Shown here piece after piece: positions 1,780 to 15,692 of a stretch of DNA of 35,982 nucleotides (the first letter of the stretch is position 1; each line of letters begins with the position of its first letter). This DNA comes from an uncultured Veillonellaceae bacterium (GTDB taxonomy: Bacteria; Bacillota; Negativicutes; Selenomonadales; Selenomonadaceae), in assembly GCA_900315615.1 (NCBI GenBank), contig OMZT01000095.1:1-35982 (forward strand), read 5' to 3'. The translations under genes were made by a program, and so were the position numbers. The notes beneath the pieces were generated by a model. That model worked only from the letters and a program-made list of their open reading frames with translations, did not search any database and was not told where the DNA came from.

Positions 1780-2493
1780 TTAATCTGCTATAGCAGCTTC
1801 AAGAGCAATCTTGATCATATCATTGAATGACGTCTGACGTTCCTCAGCTGTTGCTGGCTTCTCATCACTTGTGATGTGGTCGCTGACTGTGAAGATACCT
1901 AGTGCCTGGACATGGTATTTAGCTGCAAGCAGGTAGAGTGCAGCCGTCTCCATTTCAGCAGCGAGGCATCCATAGTCTGCAAGTTTATGGATGTCGAGCT
2001 CATCATCGTAGAAGCGATCCTCAGAAACAACATTTCCAACCCTTACAGGCAGACCCATCTTACGCGTTGCAGCAACTGCCTTTTCGAGGAGCTCGAAATC
2101 AGCAATTGGAGCAAAGTGAACATCATAGCCGAATGTGTTGTTGATCATGGATGAGTCCGTTGTTGCACCCTCCGCGATGACAACGTCACGAACGTGTATA
2201 TCCTTATGCAGGGCTCCACATGTGCCAACACGGAAAAGCTTCTTTACACCGAATTCAGTGATGAGTTCGTTCGTGTATATAGCTATAGAAGGCATGCCCA
2301 TTCCTGTACCCTGTACTGATACTGGAACGCCTTTATATGTACCAGTATATCCGAGTATGTTACGGATGTGAGTGTATTCTTTTGGATTGTCAAGGAATGT
2401 CTCTGCGATGTATTTTGCACGCAGTGGATCTCCAGGTAAAAGAATACGTTCTGCGACATCGCCTCTGTTGCCAGAAATATGTGGTGTTGCCAT
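1780..2493 (-). CDS. deoD: Purine nucleoside phosphorylase, DeoD type
   Basis: Cytosolic enzyme that splits purine (deoxy)nucleosides with phosphate into the free base and (deoxy)ribose-1-phosphate in nucleoside salvage. It has 237 aa, the normal length for the hexameric bacterial DeoD family. Visible motifs are the N-terminal [14 protein letters not shown] phosphate-binding region, GTGMGMPS near residue 63, RVGTCGAL near 87, EMETAALY near 180 (ribose and base contacts) and TVSDH near 203 (the Asp that protonates the purine). The start ATG follows AAAGGGG. The gene is monocistronic, with a strong promoter at 2548-2576 and a strong terminator at 1685-1724. Confidence 0.97.
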
Positions 2494-2547
2494 TTGACTG
2501 CCCCTTTCGAAAATTCAATTGTTCAGATAATATCGGAAATATAGTTC

Positions 2548-2576
2548 ATTATACCAATATAGTCATATTGTTTCAA
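2548..2576 (-). promoter_or_regulatory. Sigma-70-type promoter of deoD
   Basis: Minus strand: TTGAAA (2571-2576), a 17-base spacer, then a consensus TATAAT (2548-2553). It lies 55 bases before the start codon and is divergent from the tRNA-Leu promoter. Confidence 0.8.
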
Positions 2577-2626
2577 AGGGCATCTGTCCTATTTCATATC
2601 AAAACACTTGTGTTATTATTGCTGGC

Positions 2627-2655
2627 TTGACGATGACGCTAAACTGTGATAAAGT
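2627..2655 (+). promoter_or_regulatory. Sigma-70-type promoter of tRNA-Leu
   Basis: TTGACG (2627-2632), a 17-base spacer, then TAAAGT (2650-2655). The tRNA 5' end is 10 bases downstream, so transcription would begin close to the mature end. Confidence 0.7.
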
Positions 2656-2664
2656 AAAATCACT

Positions 2665-2748
2665 GCGGATGTGGCGGAATTGGCAGACGCGCAGGATTTA
2701 GGATCCTGTGTCCTAGACATGAGGGTTCGAGCCCCTCCATCCGCACCA
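2665..2748 (+). tRNA. tRNA-Leu (TAG)
   Basis: Class II tRNA of 84 nt with a long variable arm. Acceptor GCGGATG pairs with CATCCGC (2738-2744), the discriminator is A, and CCA is encoded at 2746-2748. The anticodon loop reads TTTAGGA, giving TAG (Leu). Confidence 0.96.
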
Positions 2749-2760
2749 ATATTGGTAAGA

Positions 2761-2797
2761 AGGATTGCAGCGACGAGGTCGTGCAATCCTTTATTTT
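2761..2797 (+). terminator. Terminator of tRNA-Leu
   Basis: AGGATTGCA (2761-2769) pairs with TGCAATCCT (2782-2790). An inner CGAC/GTCG extension with a bulged G caps it, and a T-rich tail follows. It starts 12 bases after the tRNA CCA. Confidence 0.78.
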
Positions 2798-2836
2798 CAT
2801 GTGATAAGTATAGTCTTTACGAGGGAATGGTTAAGT

Positions 2837-3673
2837 ATGCGTTTTTTTAAGGAGATTGTTCTAGCTATATTTGCAACTGTATTGGTCTTAATACCATCTG
2901 ATGTATCTGCCGTTGAGCAAAGCAGAGTACCACAGATTAGCGCGATATCAGCTGTGTTATGTGATCTTGATACGGGTAGGACCTTGTACGAGAAGAACCC
3001 TGATAAAAGGATATATCCAGCCTCGACGACAAAGATGATGACATGCTTGCTCGCACTTGAGAAAAGCAGCCCTGATAGTATTGTTGTAGCAAATGACGAT
3101 GCAGCAGATGTCGAGAGCACTCGTATAGTTGCAGGGCAGCGTTTTTATATGCGTGATATTATTTATCAGATGATGCTTATATCTGATAACGGTGCGGCAA
3201 TAGCCATAGCTGATAAAATCGGCGGAAGCGTGAGTGGATTTGCAGATATGATGAATAAAAAGGCAGCTCTGCTTGGTATGACGCATACGCATTTCGTGAA
3301 TCCGAATGGGATGCCGGATATGGCACATTATACGACTGCTCGTGATATGTCAATACTCGCGCGTGCATGCATGCAGCACTCTGCTTTCAGGCGCATCGTG
3401 GGAACAAAACAACGAAATGTATATCTCTTGACACCATCAAATAGAAAGAATTACTGTGAAAATACAAATGAATTATTATATAGTTATCCTGGCTGTACAG
3501 GCATAAAGACCGGATGGACACGTGCCGCTGGAGGATGCCTTGCAGCGTCTGCGTCAAGGAATGGCAGATCCTTGCTAGTGCTTGTATATCATTCTGATAA
3601 TGAAGAAAGCCGCTTCGATGAGGCAGCGGCTCTTCTTGATTATGGTTTTTCTATTGACGTGAATCGTAAGTAA
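2837..3673 (+). CDS. Secreted D-alanyl-D-alanine carboxypeptidase (S11 family)
   Basis: Low-molecular-weight penicillin-binding protein that removes the terminal D-Ala from peptidoglycan stem peptides. The ATG at 2837 follows GAGGG. The upstream in-frame extension crosses the tRNA terminator and is rejected, leaving 278 aa. A signal peptide (about residues 1-25, ending VSA) precedes the catalytic domain. All three active-site motifs are present: S63-T-T-K66, S116-D-N118 and K224-T-G226. The protein ends soon after the catalytic domain, so the C-terminal beta domain and amphipathic anchor of DacA/DacF are missing. It would be a small soluble or loosely attached enzyme outside the inner membrane. 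The exact DacA/DacF/DacB-like assignment cannot be made by eye. Confidence 0.92.
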   Translation: MRFFKEIVLAIFATVLVLIPSDVSAVEQSRVPQISAISAVLCDLDTGRTLYEKNPDKRIYPASTTKMMTCLLALEKSSPDSIVVANDDAADVESTRIVAGQRFYMRDIIYQMMLISDNGAAIAIADKIGGSVSGFADMMNKKAALLGMTHTHFVNPNGMPDMAHYTTARDMSILARACMQHSAFRRIVGTKQRNVYLLTPSNRKNYCENTNELLYSYPGCTGIKTGWTRAAGGCLAASASRNGRSLLVLVYHSDNEESRFDEAAALLDYGFSIDVNRK

Positions 3674-7221: not shown

Positions 7222-8514
7222 TCAGTATTTTTTCTCTTCGAGAACGAGTTCAAGCGCATTTAGAACGTCGTCTATATCTTTTTCTGTAATGACAAGAGGT
7301 GGCTGGAAGGCCATTACGTTACGTCCTATGCCGTTTTTACCTATGATGAAGCCGCGGTCTTTGAGCTCCTCCAATACATCGTCCAGTACATCTGGGGCAG
7401 GGGATTTATCAGGATTGACGAATTCGGCACCGACCATCAAGCCTATGCCGCGTACATCGCCTATGACCGGATGGCGTTTCTGTAGTTCCATGAGACCAGA
7501 TTTCAGCTGCTTTCCGCGCTCCTGAGCATTTTTCATCAGATTGTGTTTTTCGATATAATCGAGCACGGCGAGTCCTGCTGTGGTAGATACGGGATTTCCA
7601 CCAAGAGTTGATGCACCTGGCTGCGTATAGGTATCCGCAATCTTAGCAGTAGACATGAATGCAGATATTGGGGCACCGTTACCGAGTGCTTTTGCAACAC
7701 TCATGATATCAGGTACGACATCCCAGTTTTCTATTGCAAACATTTTGCCTGTACGTGCAAAGCCAGTCTGTACCTCATCTGCGATAAAGAGCGTACCATG
7801 CTGCTTCAGTATTTCCATTACACGCTTGAAATATCCCTTTGGCGGCACGACAATACCAGCATTGCCTTGTATAGGTTCTGCAATGAATGCAGCAGGATGA
7901 CCACTTGTTGCTGTCTTGATGATGGTTTCTATCTCATTTGCACAGGCGAGATCGCATTCCGGATATTTCTTTCCGAGTGGGCAGCGATAGCAATATGCGT
8001 TTGGAGCGAAGTTTATTCCACCAACGGGATTAGGATCTGTACGCCACATGCCAATACCAGTAAGACTCATCGTAAGCTTGGTGCGTCCGTGAAGACCATT
8101 ACGCAAAGCAATGAATTCACTGGACTTTGTATAAATCTCCGCCAAAAGGCATGAGCCTTCATTTGCTTCGGTACCGGTAGAACAGAAGAATGTCTTCTGT
8201 ATATCGCCAGGCGTTACCTGTGCTAAGCGCTCCGCTAGATTTACGAAATTTTCGGTAAGGTAAATATTGCATACGTGCTGCAGGGTCTGTACCTGCTTTG
8301 CAACCTTTGATGATATCTCAGGATTGCAATGCCCACAATTGATTACAGATACGCCCGCAAAGCAGTCTAGATACTTGCGTCCTTCGCTGTCGTACAGGTA
8401 CTGCATTTCACCCTTTACGAATTCTCTCGGCTTTTTATAGAAATGAGCGAGACATGGCATTATATATTTTTTCTTTTTTTCCAGGATAGCTTCTGGACCT
8501 ATGTATTCTGACAT
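7222..8514 (-). CDS. Class III PLP-dependent aminotransferase
   Basis: Fold-type I, class III aminotransferase of 430 aa. The phosphate-binding STGTEAN (112-118), the pyridine-N Asp in ADEVQTG (D246) and the PLP lysine K275 in SVAKALGNGAP are all present. The cysteine-rich insertion around residues 175-191 (YCYRCP...CDLAC) recalls the alanine-glyoxylate/beta-aminoisobutyrate (AGXT2-like) branch rather than ArgD or GabT. The amino donor and keto acceptor cannot be fixed from sequence. The start ATG follows AGAAGG. It lies 33 bases downstream of the U32 gene with no terminator between, so they are probably one transcript. Confidence 0.9.
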   Translation of the reverse strand: MSEYIGPEAILEKKKKYIMPCLAHFYKKPREFVKGEMQYLYDSEGRKYLDCFAGVSVINCGHCNPEISSKVAKQVQTLQHVCNIYLTENFVNLAERLAQVTPGDIQKTFFCSTGTEANEGSCLLAEIYTKSSEFIALRNGLHGRTKLTMSLTGIGMWRTDPNPVGGINFAPNAYCYRCPLGKKYPECDLACANEIETIIKTATSGHPAAFIAEPIQGNAGIVVPPKGYFKRVMEILKQHGTLFIADEVQTGFARTGKMFAIENWDVVPDIMSVAKALGNGAPISAFMSTAKIADTYTQPGASTLGGNPVSTTAGLAVLDYIEKHNLMKNAQERGKQLKSGLMELQKRHPVIGDVRGIGLMVGAEFVNPDKSPAPDVLDDVLEELKDRGFIIGKNGIGRNVMAFQPPLVITEKDIDDVLNALELVLEEKKY

Positions 8515-8547: not shown

Positions 8548-10497
8548 TCAGATGGAATTCCTTGACTGATGGAACCTGTAAGTACCTATTCCCAAACCTC
8601 TAGGAGCATCTTCCTTTATTATTTTAAAGTCATCATCAGAGAAACCATCTTCTCCGGCAGATATGCGATCAAGTGCACGTCTATATATCGATGTCAGCTT
8701 CGCAGCATATTCTGGTGTATAGTCCTTTGCCTCTATTCGATATGAGGCTACGCCGCTGAATTTTTCTAGATAAGGATACAGGCACATGTCATTAGCAAAT
8801 AGGATATGATTCCTCCCATACTGATCCATCCTGAGGCTGTGTTTTTCTCCAGCCTCGTCGAGTAGAGCATAGTGGCGATTATTGAATTCAGGATTAGACA
8901 TTGGATCGTATCCGCCAAGTGACATTTCTGCAAGGTTGTGATCAATAATCATGGATTCATATGATCCGTGTACTACGACCTCGATAGGCATCTTGGATTT
9001 TTCAACGATTTCACGCAGCTGCTCATATGAGAGCTCATATGATGATACAGCCATGCAGCACCCGTTCTTCATAAGGAACTCAGCGGAGATGTGATTGAAT
9101 GTGTTGAAACCATAATCCGCCTGTATAGGGAAATCCGTGCACTTAGATACCATATCCAGCATACCAAGACTGTTTACCAATACGCCATCTGCATGTTCAG
9201 GTGCATACTGGAGCGTATGCATGAGCTGCTCCATTTCGCTGAACTCTCTGCGGGTAGCTGTGCGTGGGGTAGAGACGAGCACTTTCTTTCCAAGTGAATG
9301 TGCCTTAGCTATTACATCCTGTATATCCGCTACGCTTACAGGCCTTTCCGGGCGCCATACTTCACCACCTATATATACGACATCTGCACCGGCATCGAGA
9401 ACGGCTAATGCTTCGGTTTTACTGCTTACACGAACTGATAATCTCGGAGTAGACGCAAAATCACATGATATGTTTTTTTTCTGCCTCAGTATCTCTTCTT
9501 GGAATCCTGCCTCTTTTACAGCAGAACTGAAGAATCTCGGTTCTCTTTTTCCAGAAAATCCGATAGCTGTCCTGTCAGGTTTGCCCAGTGCGAATGATGT
9601 GGTGAAGTCACGTGCGCGATTATCATACAATGCTTTCCAATCTGTATCATCAGTTTGCCATGCTGCTGGATCATGCATATAGGAGTCAATAGCTTTCCTA
9701 TATACGGATACTATACGCTTGATGAATGGGGCAGGGCGCATACGACCCTCAATCTTGAATGAGCGGACTCCTGCCTGTATCAACTCTGGCAGATTCCTAT
9801 ACATGCACATGTCCTTTATGGCAAGCTTATATGGATTAGTGTCATCGAGTATCTCACCCGTATTGTCATCGATAAGCTTGTAAGGCCAGCGGCATGGCTT
9901 AAGGCAGCGCCCACGGTTGCCGCTTTGCCCGAATAGTACTCCAGAGTGTATGCACTGTCCGCTTTCAGAGATACAGATATCTCCATGTACAAAATATTCT
10001 ACTTCTATACCAGTATCCGCTTTGAAGAGCGCAAGCTCATCTAACGTCATTTCACGACTTGTAACAACACGTGTAATCCCATATTCCTGCAATTTGCGTA
10101 TGGTTGCAGTATTGTGCGTGTTCATCATGACCGATGCGTGCATAGGGATTTTTATATTCATCTCATTAACAAGCTTTATCACTGCAAGGTCCTGGACTAA
10201 TATGGCATCCGGTCTAATCTCATTCAGATAGCTAAGATATTCCTTTAGTGCGGGGAGCTCTTCATCACTGATAAGATTGTTTATCGTGACATAAAGCTTG
10301 ACGCCATGTGCATGCGTATAATCTATGGCTTTTTTCAGCATTTCATCAGAAAAATTCATGTCGCCTTCGTGCATACGCATATTAAAATGACGCCCGCCAA
10401 GATATACGGCATCAGCGCCAGCTTCAACTGCAGTTTCCAGCACATCCCAATTACCGGCAGGCGCCAGAAGCTCTACTGATTTTTTTGTAAGTAGCAT
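8548..10497 (-). CDS. U32 family (RlhA/TrhP/UbiU-like) protein with two tandem U32 domains
   Basis: Listed as peptidase U32, but characterised relatives are iron-sulfur proteins that hydroxylate RNA bases (RlhA, TrhP) or the ubiquinone ring (UbiU/UbiV). The product has 649 aa. Domain 1 (about 7-270) begins with the family signature ELLAPAGNWDVLETAVEAGA. It carries C175, C182, C198 (plus C202) and C231, good candidates for the 4Fe-4S ligands, in the context HGD-C...SG-C...NRGRC. Domain 2 (about 350-630) repeats the layout (DAGADVVYIGGE, VVVHGSYES, NDMCLYP, YRIEAKDYTP) but lacks the first three cysteines. Its closest role in a Firmicute is probably tRNA 5-hydroxyuridine synthesis, which is an inference. 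It is first in a unit with the aminotransferase. Confidence 0.9.
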   Translation of the reverse strand: MLLTKKSVELLAPAGNWDVLETAVEAGADAVYLGGRHFNMRMHEGDMNFSDEMLKKAIDYTHAHGVKLYVTINNLISDEELPALKEYLSYLNEIRPDAILVQDLAVIKLVNEMNIKIPMHASVMMNTHNTATIRKLQEYGITRVVTSREMTLDELALFKADTGIEVEYFVHGDICISESGQCIHSGVLFGQSGNRGRCLKPCRWPYKLIDDNTGEILDDTNPYKLAIKDMCMYRNLPELIQAGVRSFKIEGRMRPAPFIKRIVSVYRKAIDSYMHDPAAWQTDDTDWKALYDNRARDFTTSFALGKPDRTAIGFSGKREPRFFSSAVKEAGFQEEILRQKKNISCDFASTPRLSVRVSSKTEALAVLDAGADVVYIGGEVWRPERPVSVADIQDVIAKAHSLGKKVLVSTPRTATRREFSEMEQLMHTLQYAPEHADGVLVNSLGMLDMVSKCTDFPIQADYGFNTFNHISAEFLMKNGCCMAVSSYELSYEQLREIVEKSKMPIEVVVHGSYESMIIDHNLAEMSLGGYDPMSNPEFNNRHYALLDEAGEKHSLRMDQYGRNHILFANDMCLYPYLEKFSGVASYRIEAKDYTPEYAAKLTSIYRRALDRISAGEDGFSDDDFKIIKEDAPRGLGIGTYRFHQSRNSI

Positions 10498-10566: not shown

Positions 10567-11457
10567 TTATTCCGAGCCATGATCCAAGATAGCAAGCAGC
10601 TCATCCGCATAATCATTCATTTCGTGGTTTTGGGCAGATGATATCAAGATAGGAATGACTGCATCTTTATGAAACAATGATTCACGAATGAAGTCCGCTA
10701 AGTATTCAGGGAATATGTGATTCTTATTGCAAAGCTCCCATAAAGCATCAAGATTTCCGTTGCGATCGATGCCATATTCAATGCGTCGCAAAAAGCGGGC
10801 AAGTGTCATCCGGATATCTGTAGTATACATGCTTTTTAGGTTCATGACAGCTGATGAGAGGCGCTGTGCCTTTATGATCCATACGGGGACAGCAAGGTCA
10901 TTGCTTTGATTGGCGAAGCCATCATTTGCCCAGTGAAGAACGTCGGATTTATCGTCTGCACCAGATGGTAGAAAATGTATTTCCTTATAAAGTGCATCGT
11001 TCAGCAAATTAACGATATCCTGTTTTGCATAAAAACGCGTATCTGATGAAAATTGTCCATTTCGAATATTTTCTAGTACACCATGATAACGTATGTTATG
11101 AAATAACGTGATGAGGAATCCAGCAGGTTTTAAAAGACGATTGATATGTAATAGCGTTTGCCATGCGATATATGCATGATCCAGCACGTCCGGTGCAATG
11201 ATTATATCATATGCTTGATTGTTCAAAGTGAGCTTTTGTGTCTGTATGTCAGCTATATACCATTTTATATTGTAACCCTTGATATCGTATAGGTCTTCTA
11301 TACCCTCAAAAGGTGTAACAACATCAAAGTTTGCTTTGGGGCACAGGCTGACCAAATCCCTGAGCATTGCTGCACCGTTCAATACGAGTATATGGCAGGC
11401 GTTCTTTGATGGAATCATATAATGTAGCATGTCAGTAAAACTATTGTGCTTATACAT
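10567..11457 (-). CDS. Class I SAM-dependent methyltransferase-like protein
   Basis: 296 aa. Residues 20-165 resemble a class I methyltransferase fold. HILVLNGA occupies the motif I position without the usual GxGxG, YDIIIAPDVLDH (about 83-94) is the motif IV region, and INRLLKPAGFLITLFHN (about 104-120) is a typical post-IV strand. Residues 165-296 are helical and unassigned. Motif I is weak, so SAM binding is not certain. The gene is the last of four, eight bases after the glycosyltransferase stop. The ATG follows GAGG at six bases. By context it may methylate the glycan or protein that the glycosyltransferase acts on. That is inference. Confidence 0.72.
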   Translation of the reverse strand: MYKHNSFTDMLHYMIPSKNACHILVLNGAAMLRDLVSLCPKANFDVVTPFEGIEDLYDIKGYNIKWYIADIQTQKLTLNNQAYDIIIAPDVLDHAYIAWQTLLHINRLLKPAGFLITLFHNIRYHGVLENIRNGQFSSDTRFYAKQDIVNLLNDALYKEIHFLPSGADDKSDVLHWANDGFANQSNDLAVPVWIIKAQRLSSAVMNLKSMYTTDIRMTLARFLRRIEYGIDRNGNLDALWELCNKNHIFPEYLADFIRESLFHKDAVIPILISSAQNHEMNDYADELLAILDHGSE

Positions 11458-11465
11458 CCTTTACC

Positions 11466-12836
11466 TCACTTGAAATAAGTCATGGCCTTGTATATGCCAC
11501 TGAGAAATGACGAGCAATACGTATCCATATCTGTCAGTGATGATTGCAGGACATGTGCTCTTAGTGTCCTATGATATCTTGAAAGTTTGCTGGTATCTTT
11601 GGCAAGTGTCATGGCCTTTGAAATATATTCGTCGGTATTATGGGCAATGAGCTCAGGTAATCCGGCGGATTTAAGGATACTGGCACTGAAACGCGCTCCA
11701 TATCTGCTCCCAGCCAGCGTGATGACAGGTACTCCCATGATGAGAGCTTCTGCTGTAGATGCACCGCCTGTATATGGGAAGGTATCGAGTACGATATCTA
11801 TATTATGGTAATTGCTGAGATAATGATATGCTCCATCTAATAGCTTGAGCCTATTCATGGGGAACCCGAGACGTTGTAGCCTGTCACTGAGAAATGTGGT
11901 ACGTCCGGTCATCGTATCCTGAAGTACGAGCTTAGATGATGGCATTTGTTCAAGCAGCTTCAGCCAGAGAGAAAGTACAGAGTCATTTAATTTCATGTAG
12001 TTTTGCATAGAGCCGAATATTACCCGCGATGATGCCGGATCTTCTGGGCATACGGTAAGGGGCTCTGAAGCAACCAGTAGTTCTTCTCGCGGCATATAGC
12101 AGAATGCATGTGGAAGCATGAGTAATTTTTCCGTGAAATGACAATCCTTGCTGATGGTGCCATCGTCTGATAAGGCTTCAGCGTTTGGAAGAAGCTCTTT
12201 ATCGGCAAGGACTAAATCTATTGCGGGGACAGCTGTCGTATCAAACCATCCTATAGCAGAGATCTGTAATGGAGCAGGGCGGAGTGAAGCAATTTGCAGA
12301 GTCATCCCACCAGCACTATGACCGCCCAGGTCTATAAGTACATCAAGATTATCGTTACGTATATTTTCTGCAGCAGCTGTTAGATCCATATCCGCAAGGC
12401 TGATTGTAGATATAGATGTGGGGATATCGATAAAGGAACACGACTTCATGCTATAGCAGAATACCTGCATGCCCTTTTTAGAAAGTCCGGTTATCAATGG
12501 CATATAGAAGCCATATGATGAACTTTCTTCAAAAGATGGAGCCAGGAAACCAATACGAAGATGTTTGATATGCGAATCTCTTTCATGTAGCGGACTACTT
12601 AGCGTGGAAGGGTACACATAGAGTTTTTCAGCCAACAGCATCTGCACGTACATGTCATCATCAGATATGCCATCGAGATAGTGAATACAGAACAGATAAT
12701 TAGAGAGATGCTCCCTCTGACTGCGGAGATATTTATCGTTCATCATCGCTTGCCAGTAAGCCCTGGCAGCGCCGGCAGCATCTCCCACATCATGATAGTG
12801 CGCTCCCTCTTTTTCAAGATCGCGCCAATCTTTCAA
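11466..12836 (-). CDS. GT41 (O-GlcNAc transferase/SPINDLY-like) glycosyltransferase
   Basis: 456 aa. The GT41 landmarks are LRIGFLAPSF (93-102), DLGGHSAGG (169-177), the RPAPLQISAIGW segment near 186, and a C-terminal nucleotide-sugar half with VIFGSMQNYMKL and DIVLDTFPYTGGAS...GVPVITL. Family members move a sugar, usually GlcNAc, from a UDP donor to Ser/Thr of proteins in the cytosol. Bacterial ones often glycosylate flagellin or adhesins. Only about one TPR-like unit precedes the catalytic part. In LRIGFLAPSFEESSS the usual DFxxH appears as SFEES, so the catalytic His seems absent. The start is TTG with AAAGGA eight bases upstream, overlapping the acyltransferase stop. Confidence 0.85.
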   Translation of the reverse strand: MKDWRDLEKEGAHYHDVGDAAGAARAYWQAMMNDKYLRSQREHLSNYLFCIHYLDGISDDDMYVQMLLAEKLYVYPSTLSSPLHERDSHIKHLRIGFLAPSFEESSSYGFYMPLITGLSKKGMQVFCYSMKSCSFIDIPTSISTISLADMDLTAAAENIRNDNLDVLIDLGGHSAGGMTLQIASLRPAPLQISAIGWFDTTAVPAIDLVLADKELLPNAEALSDDGTISKDCHFTEKLLMLPHAFCYMPREELLVASEPLTVCPEDPASSRVIFGSMQNYMKLNDSVLSLWLKLLEQMPSSKLVLQDTMTGRTTFLSDRLQRLGFPMNRLKLLDGAYHYLSNYHNIDIVLDTFPYTGGASTAEALIMGVPVITLAGSRYGARFSASILKSAGLPELIAHNTDEYISKAMTLAKDTSKLSRYHRTLRAHVLQSSLTDMDTYCSSFLSGIYKAMTYFK

Positions 12837-12842
12837 ATCGTG

Positions 12843-14012
12843 TCATCCTTTCTGTACTGATTTATTCTTCGGATACACTCCTATAGTAAGCTCATTGATC
12901 AGTGGTATGATATTGCCCAGCTGGCGCACCAATACTCCTGCCGTGACCGCGATTCCTGCAGTCACGACATAGAAAACAATGGCTATAGGTGCAGTCATAA
13001 TCTTGCCTGTTTGAGCGAGGAAATATGCTAGATAAGTAATAGCTAAAGGATGTGCCAAGTATGCGAAGTAAGAGTGCTTGCCCAGTATATGCAAAAGCGT
13101 ATTCAATTTTTCTGGATATTTCTGGTACGTGAATATATTAAAGAAGAATATACTCGCCATGATCGTATATAATATACCAGCTGGTGAAAGCTGATGAGCG
13201 GTATTTATAGCTTCTAATGCTGTGTAGCCCGTATTGAAGATTAGATGATAATAGAAGCCTAGCAAGGAAACAAGGGATACCCAGAATAATATCGTAATCG
13301 TATTCCTGAATCTTTGCATGATATCCTTGAAGGAATCCATATGCCATGCAAGCCATCCACCAAGTACAAAGATAAACACATAATGCATTACCCAGTAATT
13401 GAGCCTATACATGAATACCGCACGGAGCAGGGGATCAGTAAGGCTATACACCCACGTGTTGAAAGATACCGAAAAGCTTGACCAGTAATCAAATATGATT
13501 TGTATGATGAGAAGGATGGCAAGGCCTTTCAATCCTATGCGTCGAACCATGTAGACCCATAAAGGCATTAGTATATAGAACCATATCAATATAACAAGGA
13601 AGTATAGCTGATACTTTGCATTACCAAAGAGGAGCAGGCTACCCAAGGAAGCAATCCCGGGGAAACCGACCTGATAGAATATCCCATCGTGTGCAAGATA
13701 CAAGACAGACCATACGATATATGGGATGATGACTGTCTTAGCCCTTCGTTTCATAAACGAACCATATTTAAGGGGTTTCTCAGGATCCATATTATAAAAA
13801 AGTCCGAATGCGGATATAAAGAAGAATATTGGTACTGAGAATCTTGAGGCAACCTCAAAAAGCGCAATAAGATGGATATTAGCTGAAGTATTCATGAGAT
13901 ACTGGGAGCCAACATGTATAGCTATAACACCCAGCATAGATATTCCGCGTATATATTCTATTGCTGGAAGGCGCGGTTTACTTTTTTTTATAACTAATGA
14001 ATTCGTATCCAA
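12843..14012 (-). CDS. Acyltransferase 3 family membrane protein
   Basis: 389 aa with about ten hydrophobic helices. The N-terminal IEYIRGISMLGVIAIHVGSQ (about 18-37) holds the Arg and the His expected of Acyltransferase 3 (OafA/WecH-type) enzymes, which O-acetylate sugars of surface glycans at the inner membrane. The only usable start is TTG at 14012, because an in-frame TGA lies three codons upstream and the next ATG would cut off the conserved first helix. The ribosome site (AAAAGGA) is rather far, about 12 bases. It is second in the SIMPL-acyltransferase-GT41-methyltransferase unit, 17 bases after the SIMPL stop. The acetyl acceptor is unknown. Confidence 0.88.
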   Translation of the reverse strand: MDTNSLVIKKSKPRLPAIEYIRGISMLGVIAIHVGSQYLMNTSANIHLIALFEVASRFSVPIFFFISAFGLFYNMDPEKPLKYGSFMKRRAKTVIIPYIVWSVLYLAHDGIFYQVGFPGIASLGSLLLFGNAKYQLYFLVILIWFYILMPLWVYMVRRIGLKGLAILLIIQIIFDYWSSFSVSFNTWVYSLTDPLLRAVFMYRLNYWVMHYVFIFVLGGWLAWHMDSFKDIMQRFRNTITILFWVSLVSLLGFYYHLIFNTGYTALEAINTAHQLSPAGILYTIMASIFFFNIFTYQKYPEKLNTLLHILGKHSYFAYLAHPLAITYLAYFLAQTGKIMTAPIAIVFYVVTAGIAVTAGVLVRQLGNIIPLINELTIGVYPKNKSVQKG

Positions 14013-14029
14013 AATAAATCAAAATCCTT

Positions 14030-14746
14030 TTAATTGCCAAGTAAAAAATCTATATGTACATCTGCAGAGAGATCGATAGTTCCCGGTGAGACAGGTGTAG
14101 AGTCATTGACGGTGTCAACCTTTGCAAGCATTATCCTGCTGTATGCACGAGGCTGAAAGTCTGATGTATTCTCCGACACCGATTTTACACCTATGATCTT
14201 CAGACCGAGACCCTCAGCCATAATATTTGCCTTGCTGCGTGCATCGGCAACGGCATAAGATAAAGCCTGGCTGCGTAAAGAAGAAGTATCTTTTACGGAA
14301 AATGAGAGCGAACGTATCTCATTGGCACCGGCTTTGAGGGCGGTATCTATGACCTTGCCCGTTTGATCTATATCATTTATTGTGATTACTACATTATTGT
14401 CTACTGTATATCCTTTTATCTCGTTACGACGATTTTCGCGCTCATCATATATTGGCCTGAAGGAATAATCCTCAGTGCGAATGTTCTTTTCAAAAATGCC
14501 AAGCTTCATTATTGAAGCCTTTACAGCAGAGGCTGCAGCGGCATTCTTCAACTGTGCCTTTTGAGCATCATTGGCATAGGTTGTTACACCAATTACGATT
14601 TTTGCGGTATCTGGTGTGGCAGTGACCTTTCCCGTGCCATTTACAGACATGACAGACTCTGCAGCTTCCGCATTTTGTACCGGGAACATAAGCACAGCCG
14701 CAGCAGTGATGCATATCGCCATACATAATTTCACGAATTTATTCAT
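14030..14746 (-). CDS. SIMPL domain (DUF541) secreted protein
   Basis: 238 aa. A clear signal peptide (about 1-28, ending NAEA) precedes one SIMPL domain filling the rest. Typical features are SVNGTGKVTATPDTAKI near the start, IRTEDYSFRPIY near 92, and the repeated ALKAGAN/ALSYAVADARSKAN segments. The family includes periplasmic proteins linked to oxidative-stress defence and assembles into ring-like oligomers, but the biochemical role is unclear. The start has an ideal AAGGAGG. It heads the four-gene unit, with its own promoter at 14788-14816 divergent from the secreted protein gene at 14982. Confidence 0.93.
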   Translation of the reverse strand: MNKFVKLCMAICITAAAVLMFPVQNAEAAESVMSVNGTGKVTATPDTAKIVIGVTTYANDAQKAQLKNAAAASAVKASIMKLGIFEKNIRTEDYSFRPIYDERENRRNEIKGYTVDNNVVITINDIDQTGKVIDTALKAGANEIRSLSFSVKDTSSLRSQALSYAVADARSKANIMAEGLGLKIIGVKSVSENTSDFQPRAYSRIMLAKVDTVNDSTPVSPGTIDLSADVHIDFLLGN

Positions 14747-14787: not shown

Positions 14788-14816
14788 ATAATAGACTGAA
14801 TCCAATTGACTGTAAA
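14788..14816 (-). promoter_or_regulatory. Promoter of the SIMPL-acyltransferase-GT41-methyltransferase unit
   Basis: Minus strand: TTTACA (14811-14816), a 17-base spacer, then TATTAT (14788-14793), 42 bases upstream of the SIMPL start. Confidence 0.65.
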
Positions 14817-14981: not shown

Positions 14982-15692
14982 ATGGAAAAGTGGATAAATA
15001 TGTCATTAGATAGCAAGATTATTTTTTTCAAGATAATGCTATCGGTTTTCCTGCTGCTCGTTGTTGCAGGAAGCGGAATGGCAGCTTCAGCAGAGTATTA
15101 TACGCCGAGCTATGCTCTGAAGGAAGCAGGGACTGCACTTTCCGTAAAAGATGAGAAGGCATTTCATAGATTCGTCGATTGTGATAGCTTGATAAAAAAT
15201 GCCTATGATGATGGCTCACGTGAGCTTTCAGATAATATAGTTTTATTATCTGAAAGATATCCTGCCGATTGGTTTTTCAAACATGATACAGCATTCATGA
15301 AGAGCTATACAAAAGCTCATCGGAAAGATGCAATAGATATGGCCGGTAAGGTTATGGAGCTTTACTTTAAGGGAACACAGAAGCCAGCTGTTTTTGAAGA
15401 TAACCCAGCGGCATGGGTCGCCTCGGACCTAGATACGTATTTAAATGAAACTAGTGCAGAAATCGTTGCTGTGTCATTGATGGATGGTGGGGATAGGGCA
15501 TCTGCCACTATAAGGCTGCATGGTCATGGCACCTACGGATCTTTGCTTGATGGAGTGGAAGTTTCGCTGGAATTGAAGATCAGCTCAACTGGAATATGGC
15601 AAATAAATAGGATAACAAATCCACATGGACTGCTCTTGCCTGTCACAGATGCAGCAGAGAAGTATTGGAAGGTATCAGGCTGGGAGGATTGA
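14982..15692 (+). CDS. Secreted or membrane-anchored protein of unknown function
   Basis: 236 aa, family not recognised with certainty. A hydrophobic stretch at about residues 14-33 ending in GMAASA looks like a signal peptide or N-terminal anchor. The rest is a soluble domain. Its start, in which ALKEAGTALSVKDEKAFHRFVD leads into helices, and its end, SATIRLHG...VEVSLELKISSTGIWQINRI, recall the DUF2939-like class of small extracytoplasmic proteins. That resemblance is by eye only. The ATG at 14982 lies nine bases after AAGGGGG. The ATG five bases earlier is out of frame and closes at once. It has its own promoter and stands between the divergent SIMPL operon and the chemoreceptor. Confidence 0.85.
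   Translation: MEKWINMSLDSKIIFFKIMLSVFLLLVVAGSGMAASAEYYTPSYALKEAGTALSVKDEKAFHRFVDCDSLIKNAYDDGSRELSDNIVLLSERYPADWFFKHDTAFMKSYTKAHRKDAIDMAGKVMELYFKGTQKPAVFEDNPAAWVASDLDTYLNETSAEIVAVSLMDGGDRASATIRLHGHGTYGSLLDGVEVSLELKISSTGIWQINRITNPHGLLLPVTDAAEKYWKVSGWED

Follow-up and report, generated by a model that had tools for sequence, protein, structure and literature searches.

A likely lineage-specific join of a SIMPL–acyltransferase gene pair and a GT41–methyltransferase-like gene pair in a Selenomonadaceae bacterium

The functions of stand-alone acyltransferase-3 (AT3) proteins of the OacA, WbaK and WecH type are treated in a paper that also asks whether AT3-only acyltransferases require a partner, 'SGNH or otherwise' (PMC9558356). 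An R-X10-H motif in TMH1 is described as a feature of AT3 domains in the accessible text of PMC9833829, and that of PMC12423673 unites AT3 and HGSNAT in the TmAT superfamily. Among SIMPL/DUF541 proteins, which include E. coli YggE and Brucella BP26, a Veillonella member appears in an outer-membrane proteome table (PMC5491611, as excerpted). For the GT41 glycosyltransferases, the excerpted text of PMC9715652 gives the roles of three SPINDLY residues, K665 and Y744 (donor-site Lys and Tyr) and H495 (active-site His), and names Thermobaculum as the organism of the solved structure 5djs. A description of a SIMPL–AT3 gene pair was not found in the openly accessible literature that was searched; one paper retrieved on this link, PMC9020721, concerns photoreceptors, going by its available part.

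The window analyzed here (35,982 nucleotides) is the whole of contig G000:C135, which belongs to a 1.97-Mb draft genome in 188 contigs (G000) of an uncultured Veillonellaceae bacterium placed in the Selenomonadaceae. An initial annotation had described four genes on one strand, and we confirmed their coordinates and the gaps of 17, 6 and 8 bases between them. The four open reading frames, all on the minus strand, encode a SIMPL protein, an AT3 protein, a GT41 glycosyltransferase and a methyltransferase-like (MT) protein. The features of this region are as follows.

14030..14746, minus strand: SIMPL/DUF541 protein, 238 aa, first of the conserved pair (PF04402, E 8.9e-52)
12843..14012, minus strand: AT3 membrane protein, stand-alone, 389 aa, TTG start (PF01757, E 1.8e-37)
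11466..12836, minus strand: GT41 glycosyltransferase, short, 456 aa, TTG start (PF13844, E 1.5e-28)
10567..11457, minus strand: MT protein, 296 aa, lacking glycine-rich motif I (Methyltransf_11, 22.6 bits)
8548..10497, minus strand: U32 peptidase-family protein, next in the run (PF01136, E 6.9e-100)
7222..8514, minus strand: class-III aminotransferase, final gene of the same-strand run (PF00202, E 4.8e-103)
14788..14816, minus strand: promoter-like site 5' of SIMPL, TTTACA-17-TATTAT (10/12 consensus match)

The U32 gene lies 69 bases past the MT gene and the aminotransferase gene a further 33 bases on, on the same strand, and neither the MT–U32 nor the U32–aminotransferase gap was found to hold a minus-strand terminator-like site. 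Judged from this arrangement, the four-gene run is probably co-transcribed, and position 10567 is not necessarily the end of the same-strand run, which may extend into the U32 and aminotransferase genes. A single promoter had also been assigned to the four genes. The 10/12 match exists at 14816-14788, but sites equal to it are not more frequent than chance predicts (28 in the region versus 25.7 expected), and the match is therefore no evidence of a promoter. Beside the SIMPL start, a divergent gene on the plus strand (14982-15692) encodes a protein of 236 aa whose N-terminus contains a hydrophobic stretch; the protein had no match in Pfam or NCBIfam.

The SIMPL protein matches PF04402 over its whole length (176.8 bits, cut-off 25.2). 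Its N-terminus is hydrophobic and signal-peptide-like, as judged by eye, and it matches the PDB entry 4hvz, a periplasmic immunogenic protein of 26 kDa (E 6.4e-18). Against the NCBIfam model for the E. coli-type oxidative stress defence protein it scored 115.7 bits and did not reach the cut-off of 249.

The AT3 protein scored 129.6 bits against PF01757 (cut-off 31). Acyl_transf_3 is the sole domain found in its 389 residues, and a C-terminal SGNH domain is absent. R22-X10-H33 in TMH1 is invariant across 22 aligned members; the RXXR site in TMH3 reads R89-R90-A91-K92, with R90 the sole invariant residue of the four in the 22 sequences. A structure model built from 22 sequences (mean pLDDT 85.1) aligned with human HGSNAT (8vlg_B; Z 17.2, rmsd 5.1, 312 aligned) and with GWT1 (8xij; Z 12.5, rmsd 6.7, 318 aligned), the next unrelated match having a Z of 5.6. 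By Foldseek alone HGSNAT ranked first, with an E of just 0.15 and a prob of 0.99, and the AT3 profile had no match among PDB sequences up to E 1. The TMH1 motif and the modeled fold match to HGSNAT and GWT1 together make transmembrane acyl transfer a well-supported prediction for this protein.

Each of the two genes was found in 57 of the 60 relatives searched, SIMPL in 134 and AT3 in 142 of 150 Negativicutes genomes, and the window AT3 is up to 69% identical to AT3 proteins of Selenomonas and Mitsuokella, which by itself would place the organism in or close to the Selenomonadaceae. Eighty named Selenomonadaceae AT3 loci were collected; two of them end too soon on the upstream side, leaving 78 usable. 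SIMPL lies directly 5' of AT3 in 54 of these. In nine named loci, mainly of oral Selenomonas, the SIMPL and AT3 matches share 2 bases, and the widest gap is 268 bases. Same-family genomes with both genes gave a similar picture: SIMPL is directly 5' of AT3, on the same strand and within 300 bases, in 22 of 35 (the window's genome counted), and the adjacency recurs in 15 of 28 genomes of a second, overlapping family sample. Within 3 kb of the 54 paired loci, the commonest gene family occurs in 16/42 upstream and 10/44 downstream flanks. With its flanks variable and the pair itself kept, SIMPL–AT3 outlives its surroundings.

Outside the Selenomonadaceae, SIMPL and AT3 lie within 7 kb of each other in 11 of the 99 genomes with both genes. 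These 11 belong to 11 different families, and the two genes are on the same strand in 10 of them; the 150-genome class count of SIMPL–AT3 distance omits weak second AT3 matches and the weak AT3 match of genome G075. The lack of linkage in the other 88 genomes suggests that the linkage is old and was often lost. Since SIMPL is not near AT3 in 24 of the 78 named loci either, a partnership of the two, if any, needs no gene adjacency. In some of the outer families SIMPL and AT3 share a neighbourhood with genes for a YgjP-like peptidase and DNA polymerase III alpha, in some cases also with U32 (some of these genes were identified by eye), and old synteny alone could explain their proximity there. 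Taken further, this neighbourhood would favor a reading in which a shared promoter or old synteny keeps SIMPL and AT3 together with no common function and the GT41 and MT genes landed next to them randomly, a reading that the native GC of all the genes also fits. In the Selenomonadaceae, however, the pair persists while its flanks vary, and its ends often overlap or nearly touch, so that we regard such a chance neighbourhood as quite unlikely.

One genome (G010) holds a broken SIMPL–AT3 pair, in which a 36-codon AT3 fragment, 81% identical, adjoins SIMPL and the full AT3 gene lies 53 kb off. The segment (G010:C6:444345-446208) contains one full SIMPL match, two partial SIMPL matches in tandem and the AT3 fragment, and looks like a decaying copy of the pair.

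The window GT41 scored 99.8 bits against PF13844 (cut-off 25). Its best solved relative is SPINDLY (8dtf, E 2.5e-40), and Thermobaculum OGT (5djs) is also among the closest. The NCBIfam equivalog for HMW1C/NGT was not reached (39.8 bits, cut-off 1000). The N-terminus is short, and Pfam gave no TPR match in the protein. A first scan of the named genomes with the GT41 query found no relatives; pair-type relatives are 38-44% identical to the window protein. The equivalents of SPINDLY K665 and Y744 are kept in 15/15 aligned GT41 sequences. Nine of the 11 pair-type sequences, namely the window protein and 8 of 10 aligned relatives, lack the equivalent of H495, whereas those of L146 and L155 keep it. 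From these motif states, the window GT41 is likely, not certain, to be active. Among relatives, long tandem GT41 arrays with open frames of up to 1800 aa stand beside GT2-like/GT11-like genes (L252:4656-15900 and L243:7747-14618).

The glycine-rich motif I of SAM-dependent methyltransferases has the form GxGxG. This motif is absent from all 15 aligned members of the MT family, which have at its position a hydrophobic stretch, then E, D or N, then a small residue. The window protein passes the Methyltransf_11 cut-off narrowly (22.6 versus 21.2 bits), with the profile matched in the C-terminal half only, and its single-sequence structure model has a mean pLDDT of 38.6. Thus, of the gene identities first given to the run, SIMPL, AT3 and GT41 are upheld by Pfam, but the methyltransferase assignment is weak because the SAM motif is absent, and the protein may be a pseudo-enzyme. 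Among G000 and the 60 relatives, 35 of the best 42 MT matches lie within 3 kb of a GT41 gene on the same contig. A paralogous MT accompanies a GT2-like gene and longer GT41 genes.

GT41 and MT are joined in loci L142, L144-L150 and L275-L279, mainly behind a gene for a membrane metallophosphoesterase (MPE). The order in L142 and L278 is MPE-GT41-MT-TauE-CstA-UxaC; L148, L149, L150, L275 and L276 are similar, with some parts missing or inserted. In the window's own genome, contig G000:C170 carries MPE (1961-3088) and, 60 bases later, UxaC, without GT41–MT between them (L265:1961-4519), and ends 142 bases past UxaC. The aminotransferase gene accompanies U32 in L177, L181, L194 and L201, and the last two, from uncultured Mitsuokella, have the order SIMPL-AT3-U32-aminotransferase with AT3–U32 spacings of 1.0 kb and about 0.25 kb. 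In the window, GT41–MT sits between AT3 and U32–aminotransferase, parting the genes that are joined in these two loci. The MPE–UxaC arrangement without the pair and the position of the pair inside SIMPL-AT3/U32 indicate that GT41–MT changed site. As far as gene order can tell, it appears to have moved within the genome, which is the simplest history. Foreign acquisition was rejected, as GC and GC3 match those of the neighbours (GC3 0.42 for GT41 and 0.39 for MT). A 158-aa frame (L194:8310-8786) and more sequence with no called gene stand between AT3 and U32 in one of the Mitsuokella loci, in the same place as GT41–MT in the window.

Flagellin had been suggested as a target of the modification. 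This suggestion fits a GT41 paralogue of the same genome and not the window pair. The paralogue (L254, G000:C7:403-9202) has 908 aa with GT41, GT2 and TPR domains; its gene comes after flagellin-like, FliW, FlaG and FliD genes, and the protein is likely a flagellin glycosyltransferase. The genes that adjoin GT41–MT pairs of the window type are not flagellar ones; they include metallophosphoesterase, CstA and UxaC, and a flagellin locus for the window pair was rejected. Judged by titles, no paper on Selenomonas flagellin glycosylation was found.

The two pairs seldom meet. Among the listed GT41 matches of G000 and 60 relatives, AT3 and GT41 are adjacent in G000 only (25 listed GT41 matches were compared by script and the rest by eye, and 42 of the 59 listed MT matches were used). 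Neither GT41 nor MT was found within the available flanks of the 80 named AT3 loci. In the 95 family genomes that have both AT3 and a listed MT, these genes are within 4 kb of each other only in G000 and in G166; the count uses listed MT and AT3 matches, and the omission of some AT3 genomes with no listed MT leaves the 95 unaffected. Some genomes in which MT was not found still carry AT3 and SIMPL, for example G007, G010, G023 and G035. The initial annotation would have been refuted, by its own terms, if relatives carried SIMPL apart from the other three genes; SIMPL stays with AT3, but both are apart from GT41–MT in nearly all of them.

The second case, G166, is of a different genus and has the order GT2-MT-GT41-SIMPL-AT3 on one strand, with Tad pilus genes directly downstream (L274:299-5372, G166:C71). 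Its MT is of a different subtype and lies on the opposite side of SIMPL–AT3 from that in the window, so the join in G166 is most likely independent. Under random placement 0.24 AT3–MT joins are expected, with a P of 0.21 for one beyond the given case. The G166 join could reflect the two pairs working together, but it is a hint only. It bears on the proposal that all four proteins decorate a glycan or glycoprotein stepwise. In such a pathway GT41 would glycosylate a protein in the cytosol, MT would methylate the sugar, and after export AT3 would acetylate the product outside with the assistance of SIMPL. The tight gaps on one strand would agree with this, as would G166 as a second lineage, with its different MT–GT41 directly 5' of SIMPL–AT3 and Tad pilus genes after it. 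Against it stand the separation of the pairs in all but two of the 95 genomes, the occurrence of AT3 and SIMPL where MT was not found, and an MT that lacks motif I. We judge a single pathway very unlikely, and its claim of stepwise decoration by all four proteins is unsupported.

We think it likely that the unit did not evolve as one pathway but joins two older pairs in a way specific to this lineage. The best reading is that the run is young and serves two functions, of which the older is that of a SIMPL-associated envelope acyltransferase. In this function, cytosolic acyl-CoA would supply AT3 with an acyl group, probably acetyl, for transfer across the inner membrane to an envelope acceptor on the extracytoplasmic side, and exported SIMPL would act in this process outside that membrane. 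In the second function, cytosolic GT41 would put a sugar on a protein. MT would be methyltransferase-derived, with SAM binding probably lost, and may serve as an accessory or recognition partner of GT41. The GT41–MT pair would have left its place behind MPE for the site between AT3 and U32–aminotransferase, where it is probably under the SIMPL promoter.

SIMPL is a candidate extracytoplasmic partner of AT3. A stronger proposal, which we hold to be rather unlikely, is that SIMPL is a dedicated partner standing in for the SGNH domain that fused enzymes have, by receiving the acyl acceptor or presenting it, and that GT41–MT joined the pair twice as its products feed the same envelope modification. 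If SIMPL were indeed the AT3 partner, DUF541 would gain a function and it would be explained how AT3-only proteins finish the transfer. The recurrent SIMPL–AT3 pair provides a testable lead on the role of the widespread SIMPL/DUF541 proteins. With each of its genes nearly class-wide, the pair makes both the role of SIMPL and the question of an AT3 partner testable. The pair is a more durable discovery than the four-gene unit, and a tight unit of this kind can mislead when relatives are not compared.

The window GT41 resembles SPINDLY and Thermobaculum OGT in its PF13844 domain and in having the equivalents of K665 and Y744. It differs from them in its short N-terminus without TPR, in the absence of the H495 equivalent and in its pairing with a degenerate MT. 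The window AT3 resembles the stand-alone AT3 proteins of the OacA, WbaK and WecH type and the TmAT superfamily in PF01757, the R-X10-H motif, the absence of SGNH and the HGSNAT-like fold of its model. Unlike OacA, WbaK and WecH-type proteins, it is nearly class-wide, its RXXR site is R-R-A-K, and it is paired with SIMPL, of which the accessible text on AT3-only proteins makes no mention (PMC9558356). The window SIMPL resembles E. coli YggE and Brucella BP26 in its whole-length PF04402 match and its PDB match to 4hvz; it differs in scoring under the cut-off of the NCBIfam model for the E. coli-type protein and in the pairing of its gene with AT3.
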